Shown here: one piece after another, positions 4,951 through 34,599 of the stretch
Layout of the letters: each line of letters opens with the position of its first letter
Numbering within the stretch: position 1 is the first letter of the stretch
Assembly: GCF_020614375.1 (NCBI RefSeq)
Contig: NZ_CP085330.1
Location: 1 to 64,000, forward strand
Direction of reading: 5' to 3'
DNA length: 64,000 nt
Source of the DNA: Haladaptatus salinisoli
GTDB taxonomy: Archaea; Halobacteriota; Halobacteria; Halobacteriales; Haladaptataceae
The notes under the pieces: generated by a model
What the model saw: only the letters and a program-made list of their open reading frames with translations
What the model was told of the DNA's origin: nothing
Databases searched by the model: none
Program-made: the position numbers and the translations under genes

Positions 4951-5016
4951 ACAACGGAAACGGTGGTGTTAATTCGAACCGTCGAGTGTTTCGGAAACAA
5001 CGGAAATAGTGGGGTT
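4951..5016 (+). repeat. Two ORB-like elements, 3' side of orc1/cdc6
   Basis: ACAACGGAAACGGTGGTGTT occupies 4951-4970 and ACAACGGAAATAGTGGGGTT occupies 4997-5016, in the same orientation and 46 bases apart. They match the window-wide consensus ACARCGGAAAYNNYGGKGT at every defined position. Confidence 0.75.
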
Positions 5017-5085
5017 CGACTAGCGGTCGGGGTCGAGGGGAGGCGGTAGGAGAGGGCGCTTACGGGAAAAAGACGTTGTTGCGAA

Positions 5086-5235
5086 GAGGACGAAGGGAGG
5101 AAAGAAGACGGTTAGAGAAAGGGGACGATTGGAGAAAGGGGACGATTGGAGAAAGAAGACAGGAGAAAGGGGACGGTTATAGGGAAGAAGACGGTTGGGG
5201 AAAGGAGACGATTACAGGAAAGAGAGGAGACTGCC
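5086..5235. repeat. Purine-rich degenerate tandem repeat
   Basis: Imperfect units of about 17-20 bases (GAGAAAGGGGACGATTG and variants such as GGAAGAAGACGGTTGGG) run through this stretch. The top strand is almost entirely purine. The frames across it read Arg/Lys/Gly/Glu repeats and are not believed. Confidence 0.6.
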
Positions 5236-5258
5236 AAAAAGGGAGTGGAGGCAGCCAA

Positions 5259-5278
5259 ACAGCGGAAACGGTGGTGTC
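5259..5278 (+). repeat. ORB-like element
   Basis: ACAGCGGAAACGGTGGTGTC is a full consensus match, 97 bases beyond the orc1/cdc6 stop codon. Confidence 0.75.
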
Positions 5279-5374
5279 TGACGCCACGCCGTCAAGCGAA
5301 AACGAAGAGTAGTTCCGAGACGGGCCGAATTTGGCGCTGGTAGCCGAATCGGTAGCGGCGATTCGCGTCGTCGA

Positions 5375-6616
5375 TTAGCTCTCGTTTTCTTCGACGAGCG
5401 ATTGGTAGTACGGACGGATGCTCTCGTGGACGCCGGCGAGTTCGATGGTTTCTTCGAGCGCGCTGACGACGAGTTGCAGGTCCTGTTTCAGGGCGTGTTC
5501 GCGGTACTTACCGCCCGACATCCCCTCGTTTTTCTCCGTCGAGGAGATGACGCCGAGCATCGCGAGGTCCGCGAGATGGTCGCGCATTCGTCTGCTCGTG
5601 AGAGCTTCCGTGCCGATGTGGTTACACAACTGTTCGTAGCGCGGGCGGATGTCGCGCGACCGGGCGGGGGTGTTCCCCTCGGCTTCGATGGACGTGAGCG
5701 CGTAAAGGATGAGTCGGGCGTGTTGCGTGAGGTCCGCGACGCCCTCCATGATCCGGTCGCGTTCGAGTTTCCGCCGCGCCTCTTGGACGTGCTGGTCGAC
5801 GACTTGTTCCGCGGCGTCCTTCCGCGCGAGGTCGCCGGCTTCGAGGAGCAGGTCGAGCGCTTGCCGGGCGTCACCGGCGTCCTGTGCACCGTAGGCGGCG
5901 CAGAGCGGAATCACGTCCTCCGCGAGCGCGCTCTCGTGGAACGCGACTTGATCGCGCTGGCGAAGCACCTTCTGCAGTTCCGTCGCGTTGTACGGCGGAA
6001 ACGAGACCTCCTTCTCGCAGAGCGACGAACGAACTTTCGCCGACAGGGAGTCGCGGAACGAGAGGTCGTTGCTGATACCGATGAGTCCGATTTTGGCGTG
6101 TTCGAGGTAACCGTTGCTCCGCGCACGCGGAATCTGATAGAGGATGGAGTTGTCGTTTATGTGGTCGACCTCGTCGAGGACGATGATGATCGTTCCGCCG
6201 AGTTTGTCGAGTTCGTCCCACAGGAAACTGTACACCTGCGCCTGCGGGTAGCCGGTGTTGCTGATCTGGTCGGCGGGGTCGCGGAGCGTGTTGACGAGTC
6301 GAACCGCGACCTGATAGCTCGAATTGAGTCCATCGCAGTTGATCTCGATGACCGAAAGCGAAATATCGTCGTATCGGGCGGCGTCCTCTTGGAGCTGCTT
6401 GAGCAGGAATCGCGTCGCGGCGGTCTTTCCGACGCCGCTTTTCCCGTAGAGGAAGATGTTCGACGGTGCCTCGCCGTTGATTATCGGCTGAAGCGCGGCG
6501 TGATACTCCTCCAGTTCGTCGTCCCGACCGACGAGATTGTTGGGCGTGTACTCCTCCAGGAGAGCATCCCGATTTTTGTAGAGGGAGTTATCTCGGTCGA
6601 AACTGAACGATGACAT
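5375..6616 (-). CDS. cdc6: Orc1/Cdc6-family replication initiator
   Basis: This 413-residue AAA+ ATPase should bind origin repeats and recruit the MCM helicase. Walker A is GKSGVGKT (58-65), Walker B is IIIVLDEVDH (143-152) and sensor 1 is GISND (180-184). The C-terminal part (about 290-400) is the winged-helix domain that contacts ORB elements; SRDIRPRYEQLC and SRRMRDHLADLAMLGVI fit its recognition helices. Length is normal for the family. The gene is surrounded by matching ORB-like repeats on both sides, which suggests a dedicated initiator-origin pair. The ATG at 6616 is 25 bases after a strong TATA, so the mRNA is probably leaderless. Confidence 0.95.
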   Translation of the reverse strand: MSSFSFDRDNSLYKNRDALLEEYTPNNLVGRDDELEEYHAALQPIINGEAPSNIFLYGKSGVGKTAATRFLLKQLQEDAARYDDISLSVIEINCDGLNSSYQVAVRLVNTLRDPADQISNTGYPQAQVYSFLWDELDKLGGTIIIVLDEVDHINDNSILYQIPRARSNGYLEHAKIGLIGISNDLSFRDSLSAKVRSSLCEKEVSFPPYNATELQKVLRQRDQVAFHESALAEDVIPLCAAYGAQDAGDARQALDLLLEAGDLARKDAAEQVVDQHVQEARRKLERDRIMEGVADLTQHARLILYALTSIEAEGNTPARSRDIRPRYEQLCNHIGTEALTSRRMRDHLADLAMLGVISSTEKNEGMSGGKYREHALKQDLQLVVSALEETIELAGVHESIRPYYQSLVEENES

Positions 6617-6638
6617 TACCGAACCTTTTCACCGAATG

Positions 6639-6649
6639 GTATATAAAAC
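6639..6649 (-). promoter_or_regulatory. TATA box of orc1/cdc6
   Basis: On the minus strand GTTTTATATA is centred about 27 bases upstream of the ATG at 6616, the spacing expected for a leaderless transcript. Confidence 0.6.
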
Positions 6650-6734
6650 TGGGCCGTCCGTTGTTTCTTCTGTTTCTCGGTGTTTAAGTATTCCGCGGGT
6701 CGAAAGGGGTGCGCTGTTTCCGATGTCCGTACCG

Positions 6735-6820
6735 AATTCGGTGTTCTGATTCCGTGTTCTTGTTCGATGTTTTGGTTCGGTGTTCCGGTTCGAGATTCCG
6801 ATTCGAAGTTCCGGATCGAC
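6735..6820. repeat. Degenerate GGTTCGGTGTTCC-type tandem repeat
   Basis: About six imperfect units of 12-15 bases are recognisable, such as ATTCGGTGTTCTG, GGTTCGGTGTTCC, GGTTCGAGATTCC and GATTCGAAGTTCC. No coding potential is seen. Confidence 0.5.
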
Positions 6821-6869
6821 ACCCGTCCTCCGCGTCGGTCTTCGTCGCCGATCCTCTTCGTTGACGGTC

Positions 6870-6914
6870 GTGATTTCCGCAGTTGTGATTTCCGCAGTTG
6901 TGATTTCCGCCGGT
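6870..6914 (-). repeat. Three tandem 15-bp mini-ORB-like units
   Basis: GTGATTTCCGCAGTT is present at 6870-6884 and 6885-6899, and GTGATTTCCGCCGGT at 6900-6914. On the minus strand each unit contains GCGGAAATCAC, identical to the core of the ORB-like copy at 7799-7818, but it lacks the GGGGT tail. They may be half-sites or reduced ORBs for the initiator encoded 250 bases away. Confidence 0.55.
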
Positions 6915-7067
6915 CATGACTTCTGATGTTCGAGACGTTCGATTGTCGTACGTCTGAAGGAGTGCACGACCGGAGGACGTTTCCCTTGTAGGCTCTCCCT
7001 GCGCGGAGTACGGACAAAGTACAGACGCGGCCGACTTCACCTAGCAGTCGACCGACGAGAAAGGCGG

Positions 7068-7087
7068 ACAGCGGAAACGGCGGGGTA
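7068..7087 (+). repeat. ORB-like element
   Basis: ACAGCGGAAACGGCGGGGTA is a full consensus match, about 190 bases left of the A+T-rich stretch. Confidence 0.75.
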
Positions 7088-7210
7088 AGCGCGAGGTAAA
7101 AAGCGGAAAGAAGGGTTTGAAGCGGTTGCGGGGACGTATACGCGTCGAATCAGAAGGGACGCGTCTGCTCGACGTTCGGTGTTTCTCCCGTTCTTTATAA
7201 AAACACACCC

Positions 7211-7230
7211 GCCCCACGATTTCCTGTGTT
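7211..7230 (-). repeat. Diverged inverted ORB-like element with adjoining G-run
   Basis: Read on the minus strand this is AACACAGGAAATCGTGGGGC, aligning with the consensus at GGAAAYNNYGGGG but differing in the ACARC part. A run of seven G (7236-7242) follows on the plus strand. Together with the forward copy at 7506 it forms an inverted pair bracketing the A+T-rich stretch, the classical haloarchaeal origin geometry. Confidence 0.5.
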
Positions 7231-7255
7231 TTGTCGGGGGGGAGGGTATGGTAGC

Positions 7256-7370
7256 GAAAAAAGAGCCTCTGAAAAGACGATAGTTTTATTAGGTACTCCG
7301 TTCAACCATATCCGTAGTACAAGAACATAGAGTAAGTTAAACTGAGTTCAACTAGATTATTGTTGTTTCC
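7256..7370. other. A+T-rich stretch, candidate DNA-unwinding element
   Basis: The sequence from 7261 to 7370 is about 35% G+C by hand count. It includes GATAGTTTTATTAGG and the especially A+T-rich part at 7321-7360. It lies between oppositely oriented ORB-like repeats. No open frame of haloarchaeal character crosses it. Confidence 0.5.
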
Positions 7371-7374
7371 GTCG

Positions 7375-7475
7375 GCCGTCTTCCCTCCGATCGGCGGTTT
7401 TACCGTTATCGTCGGTATCGTTTCCCGCCGGTGTCGTTTCTCGTCGATATTGTTTCTCGTCGAGGCCCGCTTTCC
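7375..7475. repeat. Degenerate TCGTTTCTCGTCG repeats
   Basis: Units such as TGTCGTTTCTCGTCG and TATTGTTTCTCGTCG, with weaker TATCGTTTCCCGCCG copies, follow each other at about 15-16 bases. No function is visible. Confidence 0.45.
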
Positions 7476-7505
7476 GATTCTCGTCACCCTTCCCGCCCGA
7501 CGAGA

Positions 7506-7525
7506 ACAACGGAAACGACGGGGTG
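7506..7525 (+). repeat. ORB-like element
   Basis: ACAACGGAAACGACGGGGTG is a full consensus match on the right flank of the A+T-rich stretch. Confidence 0.75.
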
Positions 7526-7659
7526 GGTGTTCGGCAACCGACGCTCGTGAACTCCGCGTTCGAATCGAACGTACGAAACGAGAGAATCGCTCACGTTCTC
7601 TCGGAATAACGCGCTCACAGCGTCTCGATCACTCCGACGCATTGCTGACGAGACTCGAC

Positions 7660-7765
7660 TCGCGTCGTTCACCCGTTGCCGCTTATCACCGCCGCTCATC
7701 GCCGCGACTCTTCTACTTCCTATCGTCACTCGCTACCTCCCGTCGTCACTCACCGCCGTCTACCG
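7660..7765. repeat. Degenerate CGTCACTCRCC / TACCGCCG repeats
   Basis: Short units (CATCGCCGCGACTC, TCGTCACTCGCTACC, TCGTCACTCACCGCC, GTCTACCGCCGTTCG) recur at about 14-16 bases. This is another low-complexity patch between ORB-like elements. Confidence 0.4.
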
Positions 7766-7798
7766 CCGTTCGTCGCTCGTCCAATTACCTTCGACCAA

Positions 7799-7929
7799 AC
7801 AGCGGAAATCACGGGGTCAGTGTTCCGGCAAATCGGCCCGTTACTCGAACTCCGCCCCCTGAATTCCGCCTCCTTGGTTCCATCTCCCCAGGTTCGAACC
7901 GGTCGAGAAACAGCGGAAACCGTGGGGTC
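7799..7929 (+). repeat. Two ORB-like elements
   Basis: ACAGCGGAAATCACGGGGTC (7799-7818) and ACAGCGGAAACCGTGGGGTC (7910-7929) are full consensus matches in the same orientation, 111 bases apart. Confidence 0.75.
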
Positions 7930-8165
7930 GATTCGACACGAGGATGGCGACGCGACAACCGCGAACGGTTCGGACGCGGTCGATGCCGATTCGGACGCGT
8001 ACGGCGCGCTCTTCGGGTGACGACTCGGTCGGGACTCCTTTCCCGGATTCGAACGACCCCCATCGTCGTCCGAGCGTCCGCATCGGAACTCGACCCTCGC
8101 TGTTCCGAACTACCGCCGTTCGAACCGTCAGACGACCGTTCTTCGACGATGCCGTCTCCGCCAGA

Positions 8166-8185
8166 ACAGCGGAAATGATGGTGTT
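8166..8185 (+). repeat. ORB-like element
   Basis: ACAGCGGAAATGATGGTGTT is a full consensus match. Confidence 0.72.
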
Positions 8186-8279
8186 CGAGGAGCGCCGAAC
8201 GGACACCGTCGGCGAAACGGATACTCGGCCTCGTCGCACGTTCCGCAACCGTCCGAACCGAAGCAGCCGAAGGGTCGAA

Positions 8280-8430
8280 GGACGAGAATCGAAGAGTCGG
8301 CAAACCGGCGAATCGGCAAATCAACAAATCGACGAAGCGGAAAATCAACAAATCGGCGAAGCGGCGAAACGACAAGTCGGAGAAACCGCAAATCGGCGGA
8401 ACGGCGAAGCAGGTAACTCGAAATTCGCCG
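8280..8430. repeat. Degenerate AATCGGCGAA / AATCAACAAATCG repeats
   Basis: Imperfect 8-13-base units (AATCGGCAAATCAACAAATC, AATCGGCGAAGCGGCGAAAC and similar) run in tandem. Frames through it read Asn/Gln/Ala/Glu or Arg repeats and are not genes by codon use. Confidence 0.5.
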
Positions 8431-8448
8431 AACGATTTCCCCACCGAA

Positions 8449-8468
8449 ACAACGGAAATCGCGGTGTC
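8449..8468 (+). repeat. ORB-like element, rightmost origin copy
   Basis: ACAACGGAAATCGCGGTGTC is a full consensus match, 145 bases before the 3' end of the next gene. Confidence 0.72.
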
Positions 8469-23874: not shown

Positions 23875-26259
23875 TCACTCGACCAGTCGCTCCATCGTCT
23901 CCCTCTCCCCCGGCGAGAGACCGTAGGCTCGATAGACGAGCCGGTCGATGGCGGCGTCCGTTCGCGCCAGTTTCTCGTCCAGCTCCGCGGCGCGACGGCG
24001 GGCGTCGAGGAACTCCGCCGCGCCGTCGGGCGTCGGCACGCGGAGCGATTCGAGTCGGTCGCGGAGCGAGATGGTCTTCGTCGCCCGGTCGGGGAACGCG
24101 TCGCCTTCGACCGCCGACGGGACGTACCACCTGAGCAGGTCGCGCCACGCCGCGTCGCCGTCGAACGTCAGCGCGGGAATCGGCTCGGTTTCGACGAATC
24201 CCCACGAATCGACGCCTTCGCTTCCTTCCTCTCCGCTCCCTCTTCCCTCCTCACCCCCTCCCGTCTCCCTCGCGTCCTCGCCGGGTCGATACCGCGCCGT
24301 GGCCGCGAAGACGAGTTTCCCGCCGCGTTCCTCGACCGACACCGAACCGAGTCGGAGACCGTCCCGCGCGCTCGTCGTCTCGGCCAGTATCGAGTCGCCG
24401 AGCGGTTCGGCGACCTCGCCGAACCGGGGTCCGTCCGCTTCCGGAAGTCGAACGTCGACGCCGTCCCGTTCGCGTCGGAGTTCGCCCATTCGGTTCGCGA
24501 GCGCGGCCAGCGCGTCGCGCTCGTCCGCTCCCGCAGGGACGGGCAACCGCTCAGCGAACATCGGTTTGAACCGGAGGTACCCCCCGCTGACGTGCGTGCC
24601 GCCGTACACCTGTCTGAACCAGCAGGCCGCCGCGGTCGAGTTGACGACCGCGAGGAGGTATCGAAGCGGGAGGTCGGAGCAGGGGCGCGGGCGAACGCTG
24701 TAAAGCGTGTTGAGGGCGTAGAAGCCGTCCGCGTCGTACGTCGCCGCCGGACGGTCGCTGATGTCCCGCAGCAGTAACTTCTCGCACTCGAAGACCCCTC
24801 GGTCGCGCAGGCCGCCGTACTCGTCCTCGCCGATGAGCGACGGATCGAACCGTACCCACTCGCCGTCCCACTCCAGCCCGTAGCGCGAGACGTCGCCGCC
24901 GCAGACGAGCTTCTCGCGGTCCGGCCCGGGGTCGTCCACGACGAGCTTCTCCCGCACGTTCCCGGTGTGGATTCCCTCGGTCAGCGAGACGTGTTCCCCG
25001 AGGTCGTCGTGCTCGCGCAGGAGTCGCTCGGCGACCGGGACGAAGGCGGGGTCGATGCCGACCGGAATCACCCTGTCGCCGAGTTCGTCCACGAACGACC
25101 GGGAGAGCGTCGTCTCCGTCGCTCTTCGGATCCCACCCGGCGAGTCGGCCTGCCGGACCCGAATCGTCTCGGTCGGCCCCGCGTCCGTCTCGACGGTGAC
25201 GACGAGCGGGTAGACGCTGGCGTCCGCGAACACCGACGCCGCCGACACGTCGAGCAGTTCCACCAATCGGTGACGGTCGAGGAGGCGGTTCCGGAGCGTC
25301 CGCCCGTACCGCGCCGTGGTCCACTTGTTCGGAACGACGCACGCCACCCTGTCGCCGAGTTCCGCCATGCGCTCCAGAAACGGCACGTAGAGGTCGAACG
25401 ACCCCGTCGCCGAGTCGTACCGCTCTTTGAGGTCGGATTTCGTCTCCGCCGGGATGTGTCGGCTCCGAACGTAGGGCGGGTTGCCCACGACCGCGTCGAA
25501 TCGTCCCCCTCGGAGCACTTCCGGATCGTCGCCGGCGAGCGCGTCGCCGACCCGGAGGTTGTCGGCCGGCCAGACGCCCGTTTCCAGCCACACCGCCGAC
25601 CGGGCGAGTTCGACCGCCAGCGGGTCCACGTCCACGCCGAAGACGCGGTTCTCGGCGACGTACCTCCGCGCCCGCTCCGCCGGTTCGTCGCGCGACTCCG
25701 CGAGGCGGTCGATGGCGCGGACGAGGAAGTGACCGCTCCCCATCGCGGGGTCGAGCACCCGGGCGTCCTCCGTCCCGTCGAGCGCCCGCGAGACGGCGTA
25801 CTCGACCACGTCCTCCGGCGTGTAGTACGCGCCGACCGCCGCCCGGCGCGCCGGCGCGTCGACGAGCCGAACCCCGTCGTCGGTTACGGTCGGTTCGCGG
25901 TCGAGCAGGCGTTCGTACGCCCCGCCGACGTGACGGGTCGAGAGCGATTCCCAATCGACGTCGGCCGCCAGCGACGAGAGCCGCGCCTCCGTCGCCGGCG
26001 ACAGCGATTCGAGTCGCTCCCGCTCCGCTTCGAGCTCCGGACCGGCGGCGAACGGCGGTTCGCTCCGCCCTCGCGCCGCCGCGAACGCCGCGACGAGAGC
26101 GCGAAACGTCCCGACCAGCGCGGCGTCGAACGCCCGTTCGATTTCGTCGTCCGGGTTCTCCGCGTCGAGTAACTCGTCCGTGACCAGTTCGAGGGCTCGC
26201 CGGACGACACCGTCCGGAATCTCCGACTCGCGTCCGTCGCCGCCGCGGAGCGCGTCCAT
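23875..26259 (-). CDS. Eco57I-like N6-adenine DNA methyltransferase
   Basis: The 794-residue protein carries GAYYTPEDVV, SAM motif I VLDPAMGSGHF (168-178), GVDVDPLAVELAR and catalytic NPPY (260-263). A TaqI/Eco57I-type specificity region follows, containing YALNTLYSVRP and NSTAAACWFRQVYGG. Type IIG enzymes normally carry an N-terminal PD-(D/E)XK nuclease. Here the first 140 residues are helical and lack that motif, so it may be a modification-only enzyme. A Gly/Glu/Ser linker lies near residues 655-680. No restriction, BREX or DISARM gene is adjacent. Confidence 0.85.
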   Translation of the reverse strand: MDALRGGDGRESEIPDGVVRRALELVTDELLDAENPDDEIERAFDAALVGTFRALVAAFAAARGRSEPPFAAGPELEAERERLESLSPATEARLSSLAADVDWESLSTRHVGGAYERLLDREPTVTDDGVRLVDAPARRAAVGAYYTPEDVVEYAVSRALDGTEDARVLDPAMGSGHFLVRAIDRLAESRDEPAERARRYVAENRVFGVDVDPLAVELARSAVWLETGVWPADNLRVGDALAGDDPEVLRGGRFDAVVGNPPYVRSRHIPAETKSDLKERYDSATGSFDLYVPFLERMAELGDRVACVVPNKWTTARYGRTLRNRLLDRHRLVELLDVSAASVFADASVYPLVVTVETDAGPTETIRVRQADSPGGIRRATETTLSRSFVDELGDRVIPVGIDPAFVPVAERLLREHDDLGEHVSLTEGIHTGNVREKLVVDDPGPDREKLVCGGDVSRYGLEWDGEWVRFDPSLIGEDEYGGLRDRGVFECEKLLLRDISDRPAATYDADGFYALNTLYSVRPRPCSDLPLRYLLAVVNSTAAACWFRQVYGGTHVSGGYLRFKPMFAERLPVPAGADERDALAALANRMGELRRERDGVDVRLPEADGPRFGEVAEPLGDSILAETTSARDGLRLGSVSVEERGGKLVFAATARYRPGEDARETGGGEEGRGSGEEGSEGVDSWGFVETEPIPALTFDGDAAWRDLLRWYVPSAVEGDAFPDRATKTISLRDRLESLRVPTPDGAAEFLDARRRAAELDEKLARTDAAIDRLVYRAYGLSPGERETMERLVE

Positions 26260-26290: not shown

Positions 26291-26563
26291 CTACTCCGCG
26301 TACAGCGAGTAGGCGATGGCGGCGAAGCCGATGACGGTGAGCGCGCTCTCGATGACGAGCACGAGGTCGCGGTTCACGGTGAACACCTGATCCGCGAGCC
26401 CCGCGAGAATCGCGCCGAGGGTGACGACGCCGAACCCCACCGCCAGGGACCGGAGCGCGGGCGACCCGGTTCGGCGGTACGCCTTGAACGCGAAGTACGT
26501 TATCACGCCGCCGAGGACGAGCGTGAGCGTCTTCAGGGCGATGACGAGTGGCGTGACGTTCAT
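26291..26563 (-). CDS. Small three-helix membrane protein
   Basis: The protein has 90 residues and three hydrophobic segments (LVIALKTLTLVLGGVITYFAF, ALRSLAVGFGVVTLGAIL, LVIESALTVIGFAAIAYSLY). Its ATG overlaps the stop of the upstream regulator (ATGA), so the pair is one transcript and the regulator probably controls or senses through it. Such regulator-membrane pairs are common in haloarchaea; the signal is unknown. Confidence 0.78.
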   Translation of the reverse strand: MNVTPLVIALKTLTLVLGGVITYFAFKAYRRTGSPALRSLAVGFGVVTLGAILAGLADQVFTVNRDLVLVIESALTVIGFAAIAYSLYAE

Positions 26564-26931
26564 GTTTCCTTTCGCACCTCCTCCCACAGTCGTTCGAGGC
26601 GTTCGTCGGTCGTCCGCGGCGGTCGCTCTATCGTCACGTCGAACTCGCGGTCGTCCGTCAGCGCGATGTTCACGGACTCGACCGCGATTCGATACCGCGA
26701 CGTGTGGTGCCCGTCTTCGCGGATTTCCGTCAGCTCCGTGACGAGCGAGGCGTCGCTCAGCGTGTCGAGCTTCCGGTAGAGCGTCGAAAGCGGGATGTCG
26801 GTCGAATCGGCGAGTTCGCGTGCTGTCATCGGGTTGTCTAGTTCCATGATAATTCGTCGGCAGGCGGGGTCATCGAGGGCGTCGAGTATATCCTGCAGTT
26901 CGGGCGCTTCGTCTGCCAAGTCCCGCACCAT
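26560..26931 (-). CDS. Winged-helix transcriptional regulator
   Basis: The protein has 123 residues. An ArsR-like winged helix covers about 10-75: DILDALDDPACRRIIMEL, then TARELADSTDIPLSTLYRKL as the recognition element. A beta-rich C-terminus (TSRYRIAVESVNIAL) may be the dimer or ligand part. The ATG at 26931 is chosen because an AATTAT box is about 30 bases upstream. A GTG at 26958 would add nine residues. It is translationally coupled to the membrane protein gene. Confidence 0.8.
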   Translation of the reverse strand: MVRDLADEAPELQDILDALDDPACRRIIMELDNPMTARELADSTDIPLSTLYRKLDTLSDASLVTELTEIREDGHHTSRYRIAVESVNIALTDDREFDVTIERPPRTTDERLERLWEEVRKET

Positions 26932-27032
26932 TCGGCCCCACCTTTCTCGGCTCGACACATAATTGGTTCGACTACTGCGAGCGTTCTCGTCCCCCGAGGA
27001 TCACCGAAAAATCGCCCGAGGGAGCGGGAAAC

Positions 27033-27052
27033 TACCCCACCATTTCCGCTGT
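27033..27052 (-). repeat. Isolated ORB-like element 18.6 kb from the origin
   Basis: On the minus strand this reads ACAGCGGAAATGGTGGGGTA, matching all defined positions of the element repeated around the orc1/cdc6 gene. It lies in the 121-base gap between the copA stop and the regulator gene, directly abutting the copA stop codon. Confidence 0.65.
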
Positions 27053-30667: not shown

Positions 30668-31144
30668 ATGCGAGACACCGCGACTCTATCGGATTCGTAC
30701 ACCGTCGTGAGCGAGATTCTGATGCCGAACGACGCCAACAACCTCGGACGGGCGCTCGGCGGGTCGATACTCCACTGGATGGACATCTGCGCCGCCATCG
30801 CTTCCCGTCGATTCGCCCGACGGCAGGTCGTCACCGCGTCGATGGACCACGTCGATTTCCTCGGTCCCATCGACCTCGGCGACATCGTCGTCGTCGAGGG
30901 GTACGTGTTCGAGACCGGGCGGACGAGCATGGACGTGTTGGTCGACGTTCGCGCGGAGCGACCGAGCGAAAACGAGGTGCAGGCCACCGCGACGTCGTTT
31001 TTCACCATGGTCGCGCTGGACGACGACGAACGTCCGACGACCGTTCCCGACGTCGCCTGTCCGACCGAGGACCAGGCGACGCTCCGCGACGACGCGCTTC
31101 GACAGCGTCGCGAGCGCCGGGAGTCGCTCGAAACCGCCCCTTAA
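30668..31144 (+). CDS. Acyl-CoA thioesterase, hotdog fold
   Basis: The protein has 158 residues of the YciA/BACH group. MPNDANNLGRALGGSILHWMDICAA is the characteristic region, with Asn21 and Asp22 corresponding to the catalytic pair, followed by VTASMDHVDFLGPIDLGDIV. It should hydrolyse medium or long acyl-CoA. Its stop overlaps the convergent nrdB stop by 4 bases. Confidence 0.88.
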   Translation: MRDTATLSDSYTVVSEILMPNDANNLGRALGGSILHWMDICAAIASRRFARRQVVTASMDHVDFLGPIDLGDIVVVEGYVFETGRTSMDVLVDVRAERPSENEVQATATSFFTMVALDDDERPTTVPDVACPTEDQATLRDDALRQRRERRESLETAP

Positions 31145-32136
31145 GACCAGTCGAGCGACCCGGCGTCCCGGTACTCGGCGACGTTCGTCTCGAAGAAGTT
31201 CTTCTCCCTGTTCAAGTCGGTCGCCTCCGACATCCACGAGAACGGATTTTCGGTTCCGTACCGCGCGTCCATGTCGAGTTGGCGCAGTCTGCGGTCGGCG
31301 ACGTACTCGACGTACTCCGCGAACTGCTCCGCGCTCATCCCGACGATTCCCTCGGGACAGGCCTCGCGGGCGTAGATCTTCTCCAGTTCGACGGCTCGCT
31401 TCACGAGCCGGTCAATCTCCGCCTCGAACTCGTCCGTCCAGACGTCGGGATTCTCTCGTCGAATCTCATGGATGAGGTCGACGCCGAACGCGAGGTGGAG
31501 CGACTCGTCGCGCATGATGTACTCGAACTGCTCGCCGACGCCGACCATCTTCCCCCGTCGTTTCAGGCCGAGCATCATGGCGAACCCCGCGTAGAAGAAG
31601 ATTCCCTCCATGATGACGTAGAAGCCCACGAGGTCGCGGACGAGCGCCCGCACGTCTTCGGTCGTCTCGACGCTGAAATCGTCGCGGTCGACGGCCCGCG
31701 TCAGCTCGACGACGAACTCGTCCTTCTCGGCGATGGAAGGGATGCGGTCGTACATCCCGTACAGGTACTCGGGGTCGAACCCGAGCGAGTCGCAGCAGTA
31801 GATGAACGTGTCCGTGTGAATCGCCTCCTCGTACGCCTGTCGGAGCAGGTACTGGCGGCACTCCGGCGCGGTGACGTACTCGTAGAGGGCGAGCACGAGG
31901 TTGTTCGCGGTCAGCGACTCGGCGGTCGAGAAGAATCCGAGGTTCCACTCGACCAGCCGTCTTTCCTCGTCGCTCAGTTCGTCGCCGCTCCACTGCCGCA
32001 CGTCGTCGCCCATCGGAATCTCCTCCGGGGTCCAGTTGTTGGCGACGCCCGCGCGGTAGTACTCCCGCGCCCAGTCGTAGTCGATCGGCAGTATCTTGTT
32101 CGGGTCGTGTTGGTTGTCGATGTCGAGTATCGTCAT
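31141..32136 (-). CDS. nrdB: Ribonucleotide reductase small subunit with Phe at the radical site
   Basis: The protein has 331 residues. Metal ligands by pattern are Glu73 (TAESLT), Glu104 and His107 (YEEAIHTDTF), Glu177 (YVIMEGIFFY), Glu211 and His214 (RDESLHLAFG). The residue four after His107, normally the radical Tyr, is Phe111. The first ligand is Glu where E. coli has Asp. Both are hallmarks of subclass Ic R2, exemplified by Chlamydia, which uses a Mn/Fe centre. With the NrdA encoded just upstream it reduces ribonucleoside diphosphates. Only two bases separate the genes. Confidence 0.93.
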   Translation of the reverse strand: MTILDIDNQHDPNKILPIDYDWAREYYRAGVANNWTPEEIPMGDDVRQWSGDELSDEERRLVEWNLGFFSTAESLTANNLVLALYEYVTAPECRQYLLRQAYEEAIHTDTFIYCCDSLGFDPEYLYGMYDRIPSIAEKDEFVVELTRAVDRDDFSVETTEDVRALVRDLVGFYVIMEGIFFYAGFAMMLGLKRRGKMVGVGEQFEYIMRDESLHLAFGVDLIHEIRRENPDVWTDEFEAEIDRLVKRAVELEKIYAREACPEGIVGMSAEQFAEYVEYVADRRLRQLDMDARYGTENPFSWMSEATDLNREKNFFETNVAEYRDAGSLDWS

Positions 32137-32138
32137 CG

Positions 32139-34568
32139 TTACTGGCAGGCATCGCAGGTCGGGTCTTCGACGCTCGGTAGGTCGTCCGACGCGTCGTTCG
32201 TTTCCGTCTCGTCGCTCGCTCGGCTTTCGTCGCCGGTTCGCGTCCCGTCGGTTCGGGTCTGCGTCTTCCCGTACTCGGCCGTGTCGACGGTGGATTTCTC
32301 TATCTGGCTCGCGCCGAGCGTCCGCAGGTAGTACGTCGTCTTCAGCCCGTGCTCCCACGCGAACTGGTACACGTCGTCGAGCAACTGCCCGTCGGTCGAG
32401 GGGAAGAAGACGTTGTGCGACTGGCTCTGGTCTATCCAGCAGGCTCGCCGCGCGGTCAGCCGAATCTGGTGACGCGGGTCGATTTCGAACGCGCCGCGGT
32501 GCAGTTCGCGGAGGTCGGACGGGATGGACTCTATCTCCCCTATCGAGCCGTCGTGGTACTTGATGCGGTCTACCATCTCCGCGTCCCACAGGTCGCGTTC
32601 CTTCAGGTCGTCGACGAGGTGCTCGTTGACGACGGTGAAATCCCCCGTGACGTTGGATTTCACGTACAGGTTGGAGTACATCGGTTCGATGGAGGGGGTC
32701 GTCCCCGCGATGGTCGAGATGGTCGCGGTCGGTGCGACGGCCATCGTGTTGGAGTTGCGCATCCCGTGGTCGGCGACGTGTTCGCGGACGCGCTCCCAGT
32801 CGAGGCGCTCCTCGAACTCGACCGGAATCTCGCGTCCCCGCTCCTCGGCGAGCAGTTCGACGGTGTCCTGCGGCAGGAGGCCGCGACTCCACTTCGACCC
32901 CTCGTAGCTCTCGTAAGTGCCCCGCTCTCGCGCCAATCGGGAGGAGTTCAGGACGGCGTGGTACGACACGAACTCCTGCGTTTCGCCCGCGAACTCGACG
33001 GCGAGCTCCGACCGCATCGGAATCCCCCGCTCCAACAACGCGTCGTGGAATCCCATCACGCCCAGACCGACGGGTCGGTGGCGCGCGTTCGACCGCTCGG
33101 AGTCCTCGGTCGGGTAGTAGTTCAGGTCGACGACGTTGTCGAGCATCCGCATCGCGGTTTCGACGGTGTCGGCCAACCGCTCGCGCCGGAGTCCGTCCTC
33201 GTCCACGTGCCGGGCGAGGTTCACGGACCCGAGGTTGCAGACCGCCGTCTCGTCCGTGCTCGTGTTGAGCGTGATTTCGGTGCAGAGGTTCGAAGAGCGG
33301 ACGACGCCGGCGTGGTCTTGCGGCGACCGGACGTTGCAGGCGTCCTTGAAGGTTATCCACGGGTGTCCGGTCTCGAACAGGCGCGTCAGCATCGTCCGCC
33401 AGAGCTCCCGCGCCTCGACCTCCTCGTACTGCCGAAGCTCACCCCGCTCGGCCGCCCGTTCGTATGCTTCGTACCGCTCCTCGAAATCGGTCCCGTAGGC
33501 GTCGTGCAGGTCGGGAACCTCGTCCGGCGAGAAGAGCGTCCAGGTCCCGCCCTCCCGGACGCGCTTCACGAACAGGTCGGGAACCCACGCCGCCGTGTTC
33601 ATGTCGTGGGTGCGGCGGCGCTCGTCGCCCGTGTTCCGTTTCAAGTCGAGAAACGCCGGGAAGTCGAGGTGCCACGGTTCGAGGTACGCGCAGGCCGCCC
33701 CCCTCCGCTTACCGGAGCGGTTGATGGCCGCGGTCACGTCGTTGCTTATCTTCAGGAACGGGACGATACCGCTCGACTCGACGCCCGTCGATTCGATGCG
33801 CGAACCGGACGCCCGGAGGTTCGTCCAGTCGGTTCCGATGCCGCCCGACCACTTCGACAGGCGGGCGTGGTCGCCGTATCGCTCGAAGATGTGGTCCAGG
33901 TCGTCGGCAACAGTCGTGACGTAGCAGGACGATAGCTGCGGTTGTGTCGTCCCCGCGTGGAACAGCGTCGGCGTCGAGGGAACGAACCGAAGCCTCGACA
34001 TCGCCTCGTAGAACTCTTCCGCGCGCTCCCGTCGCTCGCTCGCCTCCTCCCGGAGGGCGAGCCCCATCGCCACCCGCATCCAGAACGCCTGCGGCAGTTC
34101 GACGGGCGCGTCGTCGATTCTGAGGAAGTATCGCTGCGAGAGCGTCTCCATCGCCATGTAGGAGAGCAGGTCGTCCCGCTCCGGTCGGAGCGCGTCGGCG
34201 AGTCCGTCGAGGTCGTACGAGAGCAGGCGCTCGTCCAACAGGTCCGCGTCGACGCCTCGGCGGACGTTCTCGACGAACGCCTCCCGGTACGCCCGTTCGT
34301 CGTCGCGCGAACCGACGACCCTGCGCCGATACCCCCGCCGAAACGCGTTCGCCGCGACGTCGTCGTACGCCGGGTCGCGCTCGATGCGCGCGCTCGCCGC
34401 CTTCGCCACGGCGTCGTACTTCTCCTCGCGGGTCGCGCCGTCGTACAGTTCCCGCTCTACTTCGCGGACGAGTTCCTCGACGGCCTCGTCCGCGACCGAT
34501 TCGACCCCCGTTCGCGCCCGTTCCACTATCGAGCGAATTCCCTCGCTCGTCGTCGTGCTGTGACTCAT
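32139..34568 (-). CDS. nrdA: Ribonucleotide reductase large subunit
   Basis: The protein has 809 residues. Redox Cys215 is in SSCYVTT. The thiyl-radical site is NLCTE (Asn427, Cys429, Glu431), the second active-site Cys444 is in CNLGSVN, and the C-terminal CDACQ pair (805-808) shuttles electrons from thioredoxin or glutaredoxin. There is an R1 N-domain but no clear ATP-cone, so overall activity may not be dATP-inhibited. An acidic Thr/Asp/Ser linker precedes the C-terminal pair. The ATG at 34568 is favoured over an upstream GTG. A 12-bp inverted repeat lies just before the TATA. Confidence 0.95.
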   Translation of the reverse strand: MSHSTTTSEGIRSIVERARTGVESVADEAVEELVREVERELYDGATREEKYDAVAKAASARIERDPAYDDVAANAFRRGYRRRVVGSRDDERAYREAFVENVRRGVDADLLDERLLSYDLDGLADALRPERDDLLSYMAMETLSQRYFLRIDDAPVELPQAFWMRVAMGLALREEASERRERAEEFYEAMSRLRFVPSTPTLFHAGTTQPQLSSCYVTTVADDLDHIFERYGDHARLSKWSGGIGTDWTNLRASGSRIESTGVESSGIVPFLKISNDVTAAINRSGKRRGAACAYLEPWHLDFPAFLDLKRNTGDERRRTHDMNTAAWVPDLFVKRVREGGTWTLFSPDEVPDLHDAYGTDFEERYEAYERAAERGELRQYEEVEARELWRTMLTRLFETGHPWITFKDACNVRSPQDHAGVVRSSNLCTEITLNTSTDETAVCNLGSVNLARHVDEDGLRRERLADTVETAMRMLDNVVDLNYYPTEDSERSNARHRPVGLGVMGFHDALLERGIPMRSELAVEFAGETQEFVSYHAVLNSSRLARERGTYESYEGSKWSRGLLPQDTVELLAEERGREIPVEFEERLDWERVREHVADHGMRNSNTMAVAPTATISTIAGTTPSIEPMYSNLYVKSNVTGDFTVVNEHLVDDLKERDLWDAEMVDRIKYHDGSIGEIESIPSDLRELHRGAFEIDPRHQIRLTARRACWIDQSQSHNVFFPSTDGQLLDDVYQFAWEHGLKTTYYLRTLGASQIEKSTVDTAEYGKTQTRTDGTRTGDESRASDETETNDASDDLPSVEDPTCDACQ

Positions 34569-34599
34569 TGGCTCCACCCTGCCCTGTCCGACGACGGAG

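Follow-up and report, generated by a model that had tools for sequence, protein, structure and literature searches.

Why does a perfect copy of a replication-origin box stand between copA and a regulator gene, 18.57 kb away from the nearest origin box (8449-8467)? We addressed this question in a window of 64,000 nucleotides, the whole stretch of DNA that was analysed. The window carries the origin of contig C4 (539,871 bp, 10.7% of the genome), where nine perfect copies of ACARCGGAAAYNNNGGKGT lie around the orc1/cdc6 initiator gene, within 4951-8467 and all on the plus strand. The same replicon encodes ribonucleotide reductase subunits (window 31141-34577, minus strand), and its counterpart in H. 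caseinilyticus encodes EF-1 alpha (NZ_CP111037.1:24375-25640). The location of these genes suggests that this secondary replicon is a chromid rather than a dispensable plasmid. On the H. pallidirubidus chromosome NZ_CP085301.1, the box pattern and the orc gene are present twice, 551,849 bp apart and with identical spacing, which reflects either a real tandem chromosomal integration or an assembly artefact.

The minus-strand ACAGCGGAAATGGTGGGGTA reported in the initial annotation was confirmed exactly at 27033-27052, its position 27033 being one extra flanking base. The box itself, ACAGCGGAAATGGTGGGGT, agreed at every position with the consensus drawn from the nine boxes of the origin and starts at the base directly 3' of the copA TGA stop codon. 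copA and the regulator are arranged in tandem in the same direction. The mechanical ORF of the regulator spans 26560-26958 with a GTG start, and the gene probably begins at the ATG at 26931, which is conserved and agrees with the RefSeq annotation in H. caseinilyticus. With this start the gap is 121 bp long (26932-27052) and contains the box, a T-rich patch, which is possibly the copA terminator, and a conserved promoter-like block whose TCGAAC lies 62 bp past the box. An Eco57I-like N6-methylase with a TaqI-type specificity domain (23875-26259, minus strand) adjoins the regulator; it is kept there and is less conserved than copA. We looked for the features of a replication origin at the distal box and found neither a second box in the gap nor an adjacent orc gene, only the single box.

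Table 1. Coordinates of the origin, the distal box with its surroundings, and the related sites (positions of the window, unless a contig is given).
Feature	Position	Strand	Remarks
orc1/cdc6 initiator gene of the replicon, 413 aa	5375-6616	minus	Pfam Cdc6_lid, Cdc6_C; 90-97% identity across the family
Origin boxes 1-3 (starts 4951, 4997, 5259)	4951-5277	plus	3' side of orc1/cdc6
Origin boxes 4-9 (starts 7068, 7506, 7799, 7910, 8166, 8449)	7068-8467	plus	5' side of orc1/cdc6
Weak inverted box ACACAGGAAATCGTGGGGC	7211-7229	minus	Two mismatches to a looser pattern; beside an AT-rich stretch
Small membrane-type hypothetical protein after the regulator	26291-26587	minus	Kept with the regulator in the family
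HTH_20 helix-turn-helix regulator, 123 aa from conserved ATG 26931	26560-26931	minus	Pfam, RefSeq annotation of ortholog
Promoter-like block AGTAGTCGAACCAATTATGT of the regulator	26957-26976	minus	57 bp past the box; 91% pairwise identity, 10 species
Distal ORB-like box ACAGCGGAAATGGTGGGGT	27034-27052	minus	Pattern match to the origin-box consensus
copA, heavy-metal (copper-type) P-type ATPase, 870 aa	27053-29665	minus	Pfam HMA, E1-E2_ATPase, Hydrolase; RefSeq name of ortholog
LLM-side perfect box, intergenic	C4:529509-529527		Downstream of LLM-class oxidoreductase gene
Weaker one-mismatch box ACATCGGAAACGGTGGTGT	C4:525470-525488		Between EthD-domain and ABC-transporter genes
Halorussus mini-clusters	G033:C2:52.5-53.0k, G034:C4:182.2-182.8k, G014:C2:330.8-332.2k, G037:C5:133.6-134.2k, G017:C2:163.3-163.7k, G030:C2:115.1-115.5k		

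The initial annotation had judged a chance match in 64 kb unlikely, and the numbers bear this out. A first-order Markov model built on the window predicts 0.00017 occurrences of the full degenerate pattern per 64 kb, 0.0014 on C4 and 0.013 in the 5.04-Mb genome. We observed 12 perfect matches genome-wide, and all 12 lie on C4, the origin-bearing replicon, so that equally good copies are not common and the box goes together with the replicon of its own orc/cdc6 gene. The 12 comprise the nine origin boxes, the copA-side box, C4:529509 and C4:168514. A reversed control pattern gave no match in 30 genomes. Contigs C1 and C2 also carry boxes, in clusters resembling other origins, which have the right half in common with those of C4 and a different left half. 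Since the left half differs, the copA-side box carries the identity of the C4 replicon's Orc. Two candidate distal sites were rejected. The perfect match at C4:168514 and its partner 315 bp away are coding, as they fall in an aldolase/citrate-lyase gene region and keep a constant, codon-multiple spacing in several species. For the conserved ACACCGGAAAY...GGTGT type (C4:87036), the copy of H. caseinilyticus falls within an integrase gene.

Besides Haladaptatus, the family comprises Halorussus and Halomicrococcus. For the copA side we compared ten species, nine of Haladaptatus and Halomicrococcus gelatinilyticus, the G-numbered genomes being partly drafts. The same regulator follows copA in all ten. 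Seven species have a perfect box, G005 and G001 have one with a single mismatch, and in H. caseinilyticus it is clearly degraded. Relatives with the origin therefore keep the box in the copA/regulator gap, nine of the ten with at most one mismatch. Its offset from the copA stop is 0 nt in 9/9 Haladaptatus species, and in Halomicrococcus it lies ~25 nt further. The fixed box positions show 95% pairwise identity across the ten species, compared with 51% for the N positions, 61% for the spacer and 74% for the last copA codons. A permutation of the fixed positions against the other non-coding columns gave P 5e-5, which treats columns and species as independent and is a guide only. Most substitutions in the box fall at positions that also vary among the origin boxes (the A/G at position 4, NNN and the G/T at position 17), the pattern that would be expected if one protein reads both the origin boxes and the copA-side box. 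As far as sequence comparison can tell, selection has maintained this element in Haladaptatus and Halomicrococcus as a replicon-specific Orc box at the 3' end of copA.

The distance between the copA-side box and the origin is ~19 kb in G000 and G002, 24 kb in G007, ~31 kb in G003 and G006, 33 kb in G001 and ~93 kb in G004. It is ~68 kb in G005, if circular, and >150 kb in Halomicrococcus. Given this variation, the site is tied to copA rather than to the origin. We abandoned a rule by which distal sites would always be no more than ~30 kb away and oriented against the array, since it fails in G004, G005 and Halomicrococcus; neither the orientation nor the distance of the distal sites relative to the origin is constant.

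The initial annotation had described the box as standing alone. It is indeed single between copA and the regulator, but the replicon has a conserved site across the origin at C4:529509 and a weaker one at C4:525470. The former lies ~15 kb on the origin's other side if C4 is circular, as we infer, and in the complete circular record of H. caseinilyticus the LLM-side box has the same arrangement, at 16 kb. The LLM-side box is kept in all ten species checked, eight times perfectly and twice with one mismatch (G004, G005). It follows the LLM gene also in G001, G002, H. caseinilyticus and Halomicrococcus, and in Halomicrococcus it lies between convergent genes. In G003, G006 and G007 a 2.5-kb gene has been inserted between the LLM gene and the box, which is retained; its 850-aa product is presumably penicillin-acylase-like, as judged by eye from the sequence. 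The flanks of the LLM-side box have otherwise diverged. In G000, H. caseinilyticus, G005 and G006 the weaker site (ACATCGG...) has EthD on one side and ABC-transporter genes on the other; in G001 it lies upstream of EthD. The G005 copy is perfect. Of two marks of a titration locus, a conserved position outside the origin in relatives was thus found, while a cluster of several boxes was not, the two perfect intergenic sites of C4 being scattered.

Each of the listed Halorussus genomes with the origin has 1-4 perfect off-origin copies; most of these share the replicon of the origin or, in drafts, sit on a separate contig. Mini-clusters of three perfect boxes, seen in Halorussus only, are found 100-240 kb from the origin in the Halorussus genomes of Table 1. 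In the four Halorussus genomes whose context was read, the off-origin copies lie beside a 46-aa zinc-ribbon-like ORF. A homolog of this ORF is present in the genome of the window, 0.7 kb from C4:87036 and near an integrase gene. We found no box downstream of copA in the Halorussus copA loci examined, where copA is not beside the regulator. The regulator homologs of Halorussus have a similar promoter block and no box, and one single-contig Halorussus genome (G016) has no copy of the motif. The 434-kb record of the Halorussus aquaticus plasmid, NZ_CP100401.1, contains the origin twice, ~387.4 kb apart, a sign that its assembly may retain overlapping ends. Dispersed boxes are a recurring feature of this replicon, and their loci differ between genera. 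Haladaptatus strains YSMS36 and QDMS2 have related replicons (Orc ~80% identical) without copA, on which all perfect copies lie within ~4.5 kb of the orc gene. This means that distal sites belong to a part of the family and not to every replicon with such an origin.

The initial annotation had proposed a distal Orc1 site, and both the replicon-specific motif and its conservation in relatives strongly support this reading of the sequence. We put it at about an even chance that the element is a genuine Orc1/Cdc6 binding site outside the origin which most likely serves initiator titration or initiation control. Orc1 would bind the copA-side box, and the off-origin boxes would soak up the initiator, or help to inactivate it, once replication has passed through the origin and its flanks. 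Such sequestration would damp re-initiation and help to set the copy number of the replicon. We favour titration or control because the LLM-side site persists through changes of neighbouring genes and lies between convergent genes in Halomicrococcus, which is hard to explain by promoter control. We also favour it because boxes outside the origin lower origin activity in H. hispanica (PMC3936714) and because a distal locus of RctB sites on V. cholerae chromosome II is thought to act in this way (PMC6090056). Against titration, one or two boxes make a small sink compared with the nine at the origin, H. caseinilyticus retains the origin though its copA-side box is degraded, and the YSMS36 and QDMS2 replicons have no perfect copies away from the origin region. 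The main rival, possible but rather doubtful, is that the Orc1-bound site serves transcription, coupling the regulator, or the termination of copA, to the initiator level or to the passage of replication. The distance from the box to the TCGAAC of the promoter-like block would suit this, as nine species have 61-62 bp and Halomicrococcus has 51 bp, so that the two spacings differ by roughly one turn of the helix. So would the presence of copA and the regulator beside the box in every one of the ten species, and a non-initiator Orc1 paralog, Orc1-2, regulates transcription in Saccharolobus (PMC9738581). However, Halorussus retains the regulator's promoter block and has no box there, the LLM-side sister site has outlasted changes in its adjacent genes, and the motif is of the origin type and not a promoter element such as ANTTTC.

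A structural role appears unlikely. In this account, Orc1 bound to the origin and to the outlying boxes would join the two into loops, or would label the origin region for segregation. On V. cholerae chromosome II, handcuffing by the initiator has been described (PMC6090056). The sites flank the origin on both sides at ~14-31 kb, in the opposite direction to the array, in G000, G002, G003, G006, G007 and H. caseinilyticus, in the last with the copA-side box degraded; however, copA-side distances of ~93 kb (G004), ~68 kb (G005, if circular) and >150 kb (Halomicrococcus) do not fit. We know of no handcuffing by an archaeal Orc1. It is still less probable that the box is read by a different protein, such as the HTH regulator encoded next to it. 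An operator could well lie where the box does, upstream of the regulator gene, but the origin array is made of the same letters, the LLM-side site has no such regulator, and the regulator homologs in Halorussus have no box. The least probable account is a chance match or a neutral relic of a rearrangement that moved an origin box. The single copy and the degraded version in H. caseinilyticus would agree with it, while only ~0.0014 matches are expected on C4 and nine of ten species keep the box with at most one mismatch although the spacer has diverged to 61%. The relic, which the initial annotation had considered, is further disfavoured by the selective conservation of the box, whose offset from the copA stop is identical throughout the nine Haladaptatus species although its distance from the origin ranges from ~19 to ~93 kb.

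Little has been established, to our knowledge, about how initiation is restrained at the individual origins of archaea that have several. In the literature searched, which covered few subscription journals, neither conserved single Orc boxes at tens of kb from an archaeal origin nor distal Orc1 sites in haloarchaea were found to be reported, and the haloarchaeal evidence for titration there comes only from a box-rich region touching the origin. The box type and titration by origin-adjoining boxes (oriC2D) are known, whereas conserved single boxes tens of kb away appear to be new. Such far Orc boxes, anchored to genes, conserved over two genera and specific to a replicon, offer small and precise targets (19 bp each) for studying archaeal initiator titration or off-origin action of Orc1.

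Among known systems, the haloarchaeal ORB type TAACAGCGGAAACAGTGGGGTGGGGGGGT of Origin II lies next to Hla_3512 and Hwa_HQ2959A (PMC3528665). It shares the core letters ACAGCGGAAAC...GGGGT with our boxes and stands beside an orc/cdc6 gene. Those known boxes are inside the origin, whereas the copA-side box is 18.6 kb away, single and without the long G-string after GGGGT. In H. hispanica, boxes downstream of cdc6E (oriC2D) lower the activity of oriC2 according to box number, and they are proposed to titrate the cognate Cdc6 from outside the minimal origin (PMC3936714). There, however, 11 boxes lie directly downstream of cdc6E, in contrast to the one remote box at copA. The counterpart of this negative-control region in the window, with the same layout, is the group of three boxes directly downstream of orc1/cdc6 (4951-5277). 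The distal RctB-site locus of V. cholerae chromosome II, thought to titrate the initiator, likewise belongs to a secondary chromosome and lies tens of kb from the origin there (PMC6090056), but it is bacterial, has an unrelated initiator and comprises six sites within 74 kb. The Orc1-2 DNA-damage response element of Saccharolobus is another case of an Orc1-family protein acting away from origins, although there a non-initiator paralog uses an ANTTTC motif inside promoters (PMC9738581). datA of E. coli and the DnaA-box clusters of B. subtilis and S. coelicolor are initiator boxes outside oriC by which untimely initiation is repressed (named in PMC10950094); they are clusters for bacterial DnaA, while the copA-side box is single. 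With somewhat less than even confidence, we propose that the secondary replicon of Haladaptataceae has an archaeal counterpart of these clusters that is built from single sites. In it, single Orc1/Cdc6 boxes dispersed at fixed genes (after copA, after the LLM oxidoreductase and in the Halorussus mini-clusters) would jointly control the initiation of that replicon only.
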